Below, one piece after another: positions 47,827-48,983 of a stretch of DNA of 64,000 nt. The notes beneath the pieces are model-generated. The model saw only the letters and a list, made by a program, of their open reading frames with translations, had not been told where the DNA came from and searched no databases. Each line of letters begins with the position of its first letter. Position 1 is the stretch's first letter. The stretch lies in NCBI RefSeq assembly GCF_000420545.1, contig NZ_ATVD01000003.1, positions 124,001 through 188,000 of the forward strand, in the 5' to 3' direction. The stretch is from Arenimonas oryziterrae DSM 21050 = YC6267 (lineage in GTDB: Bacteria; Pseudomonadota; Gammaproteobacteria; Xanthomonadales; Xanthomonadaceae). The translations under genes and the position numbers were made by a program.

Positions 47827-47949
47827 GACTTGGGGGTCACCGCCCGGCGCGCGGGAAAGTCGCTAAACGGCGACTGAATCGCACGAAATCTTAACGGGGC
47901 AGTTCACGAACTTCTCATAGCGCCGATGTTCTGATGCTTGCGACGGATG

Positions 47950-48064
47950 CAACGTCCGTCGTGGATCAACTCCCTCCCCTGAGTGTGATCCCGAAGGAAC
48001 CGACTTTCCCCAGTCGGTTCCAACCCCCGGCCCCGCAAGCTTCCCCTGGCTTGCGGGGCTTTTT
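47950..48064 (+). ncRNA. Small RNA candidate with three C-loop hairpins (sX13-like)
   Basis: Downstream of polA lie three consecutive hairpins, each exposing CCCC in its loop. Hairpin 1 at 47963-47991: GGATCA plus ACTC pair with GAGT and TGATCC (one G bulge), loop CCTCCCCT. Hairpin 2 at 47996-48021: perfect 10-bp stem GGAACCGACT, loop TTCCCC. Hairpin 3 at 48031-48058: perfect 10-bp stem CCCCGCAAGC, loop TTCCCCTG, then a T-run at 48060-48064. This is the layout I recall for Xanthomonas sX13, about 115 nt and also near polA, whose C-rich loops bind G-rich mRNA sites. The 5' end is a guess from that length. An extra 7-bp hairpin sits at 47941-47961. Confidence 0.7.
48031..48064 (+). terminator. 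Intrinsic terminator of the polA-downstream RNA
   Basis: CCCCGCAAGC-(TTCCCCTG)-GCTTGCGGGG followed by CTTTTT. Stem and T-run are textbook on the plus strand. It abuts the hemF stop codon (48063-48065). On the minus strand there is no T-run, so it does not serve hemF. Confidence 0.9.
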
Positions 48065-48983
48065 ATTGCGCGTCGCGTGCGGCTTCGCCGAGCCAGTCGC
48101 GCGGCTGCAGATAATCGCCCAGGCGCGCCTCGGCGCTGCCGGGCGCGGGTTGCCAGGCGTATTCGAAACGCACGCGCGGCGGCAGGCTCATCAGGATGCT
48201 TTCCGTGCGGCCGCCGCTCTGCAGGCCGAATAGCGTGCCGCGGTCCCAGACCAGGTTGAATTCCACGTAGCGACCGCGTCGGTAAAGCTGGAACTCGCGC
48301 TCGCGTTCGCCGTAGGGCGTGCGCTTGCGCCGCTCGACGATCGGCAGATAGGCGTCGAGGAATCCGTTGCCGACCGCGCGCTGATAGGCAAAGCAAGAGG
48401 CGAAATCGCCGGTCAGGTCATCGAAGAACAGGCCGCCGACACCGCGGGCTTCGTTGCGATGCTTGAGAAAGAAATAACGGTCGCACCAGGCCTTGTGCTC
48501 GGCGTAGCGGTCGGCTCCGAACGGCGCGCACAGATCCCGCGCGACCGTATGCCAGTGGCGCACATCGTCGTCGAACGGATAGAAGGGTGTGAGATCGAAG
48601 CCACCGCCGAACCACCAGATCGGCGCGCCGCCGGGCGGATGCGCCTCGAAATAGCGCACGTTGGCGTGGCTGGTCGGCACATACGGATTGCGCGGATGCA
48701 TCACCAGCGACACGCCCAGGGCACGCCAGGGTGCGCCGGCAAGATCGGGCCGATGCGCCGTCGCCGATGCCGGCAAGGTGGCGCCGCTGACGTCGGAGAA
48801 GCCAACGCCGGCCTGCTCGAAGACCGCACCTTCCTTCATCACGCGCGAGCGACCGCCGCCGCCTTCGGGGCGTTGCCATTCGTCCTGCACGAAGCGGCCC
48901 TCGCCATCCGCGGTCGCCAGGCCTTGGCACAAGCGGTCCTGCAGATCGCGGAGAAATTCGTGGACGGCTTCGATCTGGCTCAT
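48063..48983 (-). CDS. hemF: Oxygen-dependent coproporphyrinogen III oxidase
   Basis: 306 residues from ATG at 48981-48983. Conserved blocks of aerobic HemF are all present: [24 protein letters not shown]-like [59 protein letters not shown], and [35 protein letters not shown] (in parts). It decarboxylates coproporphyrinogen III using O2, so the organism makes haem aerobically, and the haem pathway also feeds the cytochrome c nearby. A TATCAT -10-like box lies at 49011-49016 (minus). It is convergent with the sRNA/polA side. Confidence 0.96.

Follow-up and report, generated by a model that had tools for sequence, protein, structure and literature searches.

The interval between polA and hemF in the window, the 64,000-nt stretch of Arenimonas oryziterrae DSM 21050 analyzed here, contains a gene for the small RNA sX13, an assignment that is well supported by sequence comparison. 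The Rfam covariance model RF02232 (sX13) matches window 47951-48065 (+) with 73.2 bits against a cut-off of 50, the match covers the full length of the model (positions 1-115 of 115), and this locus is the sole sX13 match at E<=0.001 in its own genome. The initial annotation had guessed a kinship with Xanthomonas sX13, characterized by a position near polA and C-rich loops, and the guess was right; both traits agree with the portions of the Xanthomonas study available to us (PMC3771888). The RNA itself is already known, and a standard Rfam scan detects this further member of the family here. Relative to the sX13 description in those portions, our analysis suggests two additions, a fourth hairpin at the 5' end and an rpoE-like promoter. 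We consider it quite probable that the locus is an sX13 gene with an RpoE-type start at 47940-47943, encoding a four-hairpin RNA that represses through its C-loops. The relevant features are:

45079-47826, + strand: polA, DNA polymerase I, upstream neighbor (Pfam PF00476, PF02739, PF01612, PF01367)
47908-47934, + strand: predicted sigmaE (RpoE)-type promoter (pattern match, rpoE-promoter matrix)
47908-47913, + strand: predicted -35 GAACTT, followed by a 16-nt spacer
47930-47934, + strand: predicted -10 TCTGA of the same promoter
47940-47943, + strand: predicted transcription start, at the base of the 5' hairpin
47940-47962, + strand: 5' (fourth) hairpin, 10-bp stem, CAA loop (fold, covariation in two alignments)
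47951-48065, + strand: sX13 as delimited by RF02232 (Rfam match)
47963-47991, + strand: sX13 stem-loop 1, one bulge, CCCC at 47976-47979 (fold, alignment A1)
47996-48021, + strand: sX13 stem-loop 2, 10 perfect pairs, CCCC at 48008-48011 (fold, alignment A1)
48029-48064, + strand: sX13 stem-loop 3, the intrinsic terminator; hairpin 48029-48060, 13 pairs, CCCC at 48043-48046 (fold, terminator scan)
48060-48064, + strand: sX13 T-run after stem-loop 3 (terminator scan)
48063-48983, - strand: hemF, coproporphyrinogen III oxidase, convergent neighbor (Pfam PF01218)

Folding of 47930-48066 gave a minimum free energy of -71.3 kcal/mol, compared with a mean of -39.4 for shuffled sequences (z = -8.07), and none of 200 shuffles folded as well, bearing out the initial annotation's impression that the stems are too regular for chance. 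The three stacked hairpins that it described, each with CCCC in its loop, are all present in the fold, including the perfect 10-bp stem at 47996-48021; the stem that it reported at 48031-48058 extends from 48029 to 48060 with 13 pairs, and the terminator scan identified this last hairpin and its T-run as a plus-strand terminator. The total, however, is four hairpins, not three. Both neighbors named at the outset were confirmed by Pfam: polA ends with its stop at 47826, with the RF02232 match following from 47951, and the sX13 T-run extends into the hemF stop codon (48063-48065). On the hemF strand, the terminator scan of 47820-48100 revealed nothing resembling a terminator, and transcripts reading through the end of hemF would therefore run antisense to sX13. 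Beside hemF, window 49052-50014 (+) encodes a protein with the N-terminal domain of FkbO/Hyg5-like chorismatases.

To place the locus among its relatives, we searched 250 genomes drawn from the order. An sX13 match exceeding the cut-off was found in 56 of them and one at E<=0.001 in 103, the second figure being soft, since one of 14 control genomes also matches below the cut-off. These searches yielded 110 sX13 places, of which 92, window included, were examined; the remaining 18 are all below the cut-off. A polA match lies within 1000 nt on the upstream side of 82 of the 92, and among the ten places without one, L128, L160, and L170 have less than 500 nt of upstream contig sequence. When the 80 polA loci closest by PolA (of 583 candidates) were scanned with a model built here, 78 contained an sX13-like match (two of these loci, L027 and L060, end at a contig edge, and L010 has two matches), while L015 and L053 had no model match, and visual inspection of the 511-586 nt that follow polA there likewise revealed none. 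Just two of these 80 loci contain TTCACGAACTTCTCAT, L045 from an Arenimonas MAG and L007 from a gammaproteobacterial MAG; it is also found in five genomes of the window's genus. From 83 distinct sX13 sequences, 44 entered alignment A1 (the window's family) and 33 entered alignment A2 (a second family, f12); L133, L145, L146, L156, and both L171 copies are in neither, and L168 was left out before alignment, its Rfam match being out of register. Related species are not independent, and counts such as these overstate the number of separate events.

Given its position immediately after polA, in the same orientation, and the intrinsic terminator at its end, the element might be a mere terminator or a 3' processing product of the polA mRNA with no regulatory function. 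We regard this as highly improbable, given its compensatory stems and invariant loops. In Dokdonella fugitiva (Rhodanobacteraceae), the sX13 unit (L078:4878-5000 (-)) is inverted relative to polA and keeps both promoter-like boxes of its own (GAAACTT-N15-ATCTAT) and the 5' hairpin; its location on the strand opposite polA argues for an independent gene and disfavors a polA by-product. Furthermore, L120:1001-1110 in genome G225 is a second sX13 copy with its own 5' hairpin and no polA or hemF match within 1000 nt. Two other arrangements were observed. Tandem sX13-like copies lie downstream of polA in two genomes of the order (L010:1561-1691 and 1804-1933; L171:1001-1121 and 1248-1364 (-)); in each pair the polA-distal copy has an rpoE-type site (TGAACTT or TGAACTC, 15 nt, ATCTCT), and the scans found none at the polA-proximal copy. 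L145 and L146, from family f4 (distinct from f1 and f12), carry sX13-like sequences just below the Rfam cut-off (47.2 and 45.5 bits) that lie beside hemF with a GAAACCT-N15-GTCTAC site.

From the sequence, fold, family membership, conservation, covariation, and promoter match observed here, we infer the following course of events. RNA polymerase, most likely with the envelope-stress sigma factor RpoE, would start near 47940-47943 and produce a transcript roughly 125 nt long, its 3' end set by the terminator hairpin and T-run (48064-48065). This RNA would begin with a short 5' hairpin with a CAA loop, which most likely seals and protects the 5' end, followed by three stable CCCC hairpins whose loops, judging by the tests of Xanthomonas sX13, would pair with GGGG-type motifs near start codons and thereby lower translation. 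Xanthomonas sX13, which has three stems with C-rich loops and lies at polA, depends in the plant on loops 2 and 3, and the mRNAs that it represses are enriched for GGGG near the start codon (PMC3771888). Mutation of a loop or of the G-motif abolishes its control of reporters, and Hfq is dispensable for its action (PMC3771888). Changing both partners failed to restore control (PMC3771888), and direct pairing is thus the conclusion of those authors rather than formally proven.

The window locus shares with sX13 of X. campestris pv. vesicatoria the polA locus, the three stems, the C-rich loops, a third stem that acts as terminator, and a full-length model match. The two differ in loop 3, which reads CCCCC in X. 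campestris pv. vesicatoria (PMC3771888) and CCCC in the window, and only the window combines a 5' hairpin beyond the Rfam start, a GAACTT-N16-TCTGA promoter, and an hfq gene without the G-motif. The initial annotation had named a lack of conserved C-loops in relatives that keep polA-hemF as grounds for refutation, and within the window's family this objection fails: all 44 aligned sequences, the present genome among them, have an unchanged UCCCC in loops 1 and 2, although in loop 3 only two C are invariant. Among the 33 sequences of f12, loop 1 has shrunk to CUCCCUG, and loops 2 and 3 remain C-rich.

With respect to targets, hfq is present in the genome, and the G-motif of Xanthomonas hfq is not kept, as no GGGG occurs from -100 to +103 of the gene (L206, start 1704 (-)). 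We therefore rejected hfq as a conserved sX13 target, and the target set differs at least there. A search for pilH beside a CheW gene returned one response regulator ORF, which we take to be PilG; its response regulator matches among the 25 NCBIfam matches listed are all below cut-off. GGGG is situated at -10 to -7 of its likely ATG, a weak indication because G-rich ribosome-binding sites are common. Should translation begin at an in-frame ATG 12 nt upstream, the motif would fall just within the coding sequence.

Covariation lends good support to the additional 5' hairpin. The Rfam start at 47951 falls inside the loop of hairpin 47940-47962, and in 72 of 75 distinct sequences, window included, folding revealed a hairpin that straddles this start; in L135, L145, and L168 it was not the best stem. 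In A1, 97.0% of the cells of the 5' stem are paired and seven of nine pairs have changed on both sides (0/500 shuffles as high), compared with 25-60% pairing when the partner was slid by 1-3 columns as a control. Pairing reaches 99.2% in A2, where four of eight pairs have changed on both sides, a number attained by 3 of 500 shuffles, and where further pair types are no more frequent than in shuffles (495/500 as high). Because 27 of the 34 f12 hairpin pieces are individually non-significant (p>0.05, shuffling), covariation alone makes the case in that family. Both alignments show an unvarying CAA in the loop, and a stem of at least six pairs with a CAA loop is present in 76 of 78 forward-strand model matches in the polA loci, the exceptions being L044 and one L010 copy, as well as in the reverse-strand Dokdonella match. 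Since the straddling stem covaries, the RNA probably begins about 10 nt upstream of the Rfam start.

Alternatively, the 5' end could lie at 47951, as in Rfam, with the upstream half of the palindrome untranscribed and the palindrome serving as a DNA operator for a promoter regulator. Besides the Rfam boundary, this reading fits the report that Xanthomonas sX13 has a 14-nt unstructured 5' region and that an RNA truncated to lack it still complemented the mutant (PMC3771888). In our interpretation, the 14 nt removed correspond to the 14 Rfam positions before stem 1, which form the 3' half of the 5' hairpin. The operator reading, however, is disfavored by the stem itself: G-U or U-G pairs occupy 53 of 396 stem cells in A1, with 25 falling in a single column pair, and such pairs are acceptable in an RNA stem but unnecessary in a DNA palindrome; in addition, the sequence of the arms differs between the A1 and A2 families while the pairing persists. 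Moreover, the predicted -10 box ends 17 nt upstream of 47951, too far for a transcription start, and it ends 6-9 nt before 47940-47943, so we place the start at the foot of the hairpin. We thus consider a start at 47951 with an operator palindrome improbable.

To evaluate the putative promoter, we compared it with the promoters of rpoE genes. GAACTT-N16-TCTGA at 47908-47934 is a pattern match of which 0.07 are expected per shuffled window, and an rpoE-promoter matrix scores the site at 8.7, a value reached by none of 100 shuffles of the 60 nt upstream of sX13. The matrix was built from 27 rpoE sites chosen by the pattern GAACTT/AAACTT-N14..16-GTC and hence is not an unbiased motif search. These sites, from 27 of 31 genomes, read GAACTT-N15-GTC (one with a 14-nt spacer, one with AAACTT), which agrees with the consensus GAACTT/TCTCA cited for X. 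campestris in the part of PMC4229105 available to us; the other four rpoE upstream pieces lack the pattern. The -10 of the window site is TTCTGA, not GTCNNA. The genome has its own rpoE gene, whose product matches TIGR02939 with 324.6 bits (cut-off 236), and the adjoining ORF, taken to encode the anti-sigma factor, exceeds the Pfam cut-off for RseA_N and has no NCBIfam match. The genome's own rpoE locus reads GAACTT-N15-GTCTTT, and the exact pattern GAACTT-N15..17-TCT[AG]A is absent from it. As a regulon finder this pattern was rejected: it has three matches in the genome versus four for a reversed control, and alone constitutes no evidence.

With both strands of 1.27 Mb of polA-locus sequence summed as a control, roughly 0.0024 of the 60-nt stretches score at least 8.7; sX13 promoters and conserved intragenic sites are part of this control. 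Within the window, four further sites outscore 8.7. A single site is thus only suggestive, and the weight rests on a fixed place across lineages. Sites with p<=0.05 were found upstream of sX13 in 6/6 members of the window's genus, window included, always at -44, and in 32/34 f12 sequences, 33 of the 34 having the site at -43 to -45; in f4, both of two near-identical sequences have one, at -33. In the rest of the window's family only 14 of 40 reach this threshold, one of them (L118) at another place; L160, without 60 nt upstream, was unscored for promoters. The f12 footprint (32 sequences) shows the two boxes conserved against a variable spacer, with 1.23 bits per column at -35, 1.08 at -10, and 1.59 in the hairpin arm, compared with 0.39 in the spacer and 0.32 in the discriminator. 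Across the remainder of the family, the boxes are barely set apart from their surroundings (-35 1.18, -10 0.87, spacer 0.98 bits). Each column range behind these footprint values deviates by up to one column at its end.

These observations bear on the possibility that sX13 is transcribed from a house-keeping (sigma70) promoter and that the likeness of GAACTT/TCTGA to an rpoE promoter is coincidental. Many relatives in the family have TATATC or TATAGC at -10 and lack the -35 TT, and 26 of those 40 sequences are non-significant; many of the 40 read CGAACCA...GTCATATAG or have TATATC at -10, which fits a house-keeping factor equally well; the background rate of high matrix scores in polA loci, also inside genes, and at the four other window sites points the same way. 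Xanthomonas sX13 is termed constitutively expressed (PMC3771888). A strict consensus scan nonetheless found no sigma70-like site in 47820-48100, a weak result given that only 0.1 are expected, and coincidence would have to account both for the fixed position of the rpoE-type site in the genus and f12 and for the conservation of both boxes in f12. A sigma70 promoter is therefore, in our estimation, unlikely but a serious contender. Promoter resemblance suggests RpoE control of sX13. This prediction agrees with the observations in the window's genus and in f12; for Xanthomonas itself it is doubtful. Our literature search found no paper naming sX13, RpoE, and Xanthomonas together (whole words). 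In the available portions of the Xanthomonas study, sX13 is independent of HrpG and HrpX and no transcription regulator is named; growth at 37 °C, high salt, and minimal medium raise its level, and H2O2 and 4 °C leave it unchanged (PMC3771888).

Several other small RNAs invite comparison. The alpha-r7 sRNAs of alphaproteobacteria are likened to sX13 by description, with a polA locus, three stem-loops, and apical C-rich motifs, and no sequence similarity is stated in the portions at hand (PMC3771888). Spot 42 of E. coli likewise adjoins polA, but it is Hfq-dependent, acts in carbon metabolism, and has no sequence similarity (PMC3771888); the Rfam scan gave no match to it over the cut-off in the window. 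The anti-hemB RNA of Burkholderia (RF02837) has a similar C-rich first part and terminator, and membership in that family was rejected on a weak match of 19.8 bits against a cut-off of 49.5. MicA and RybB are RpoE-dependent, Hfq-dependent RNAs with single-stranded seeds, and if the promoter reading holds, sX13 would share with them a place in the sRNA arm of the sigmaE response. By contrast, sX13 acts through its hairpin loops, and its action in Xanthomonas does not require Hfq (PMC3771888).

We tentatively propose, with somewhat more doubt than confidence, that the ancestral sX13 of the order was an envelope-stress RNA driven by RpoE, with four hairpins of which the 5' one began at the transcription start, and that Xanthomonas and its close relatives later drifted to constitutive house-keeping transcription, the Rfam 5' end being processed or misplaced within the 5' hairpin's loop. 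The conserved 5' hairpin, if true, alters the molecule to be probed or expressed, since constructs that begin at the Rfam start lack half of it. The conserved rpoE-type promoter, if true, would connect sX13 and its C-loops with envelope stress and might account for the rise of Xanthomonas sX13 at 37 °C and in high salt.
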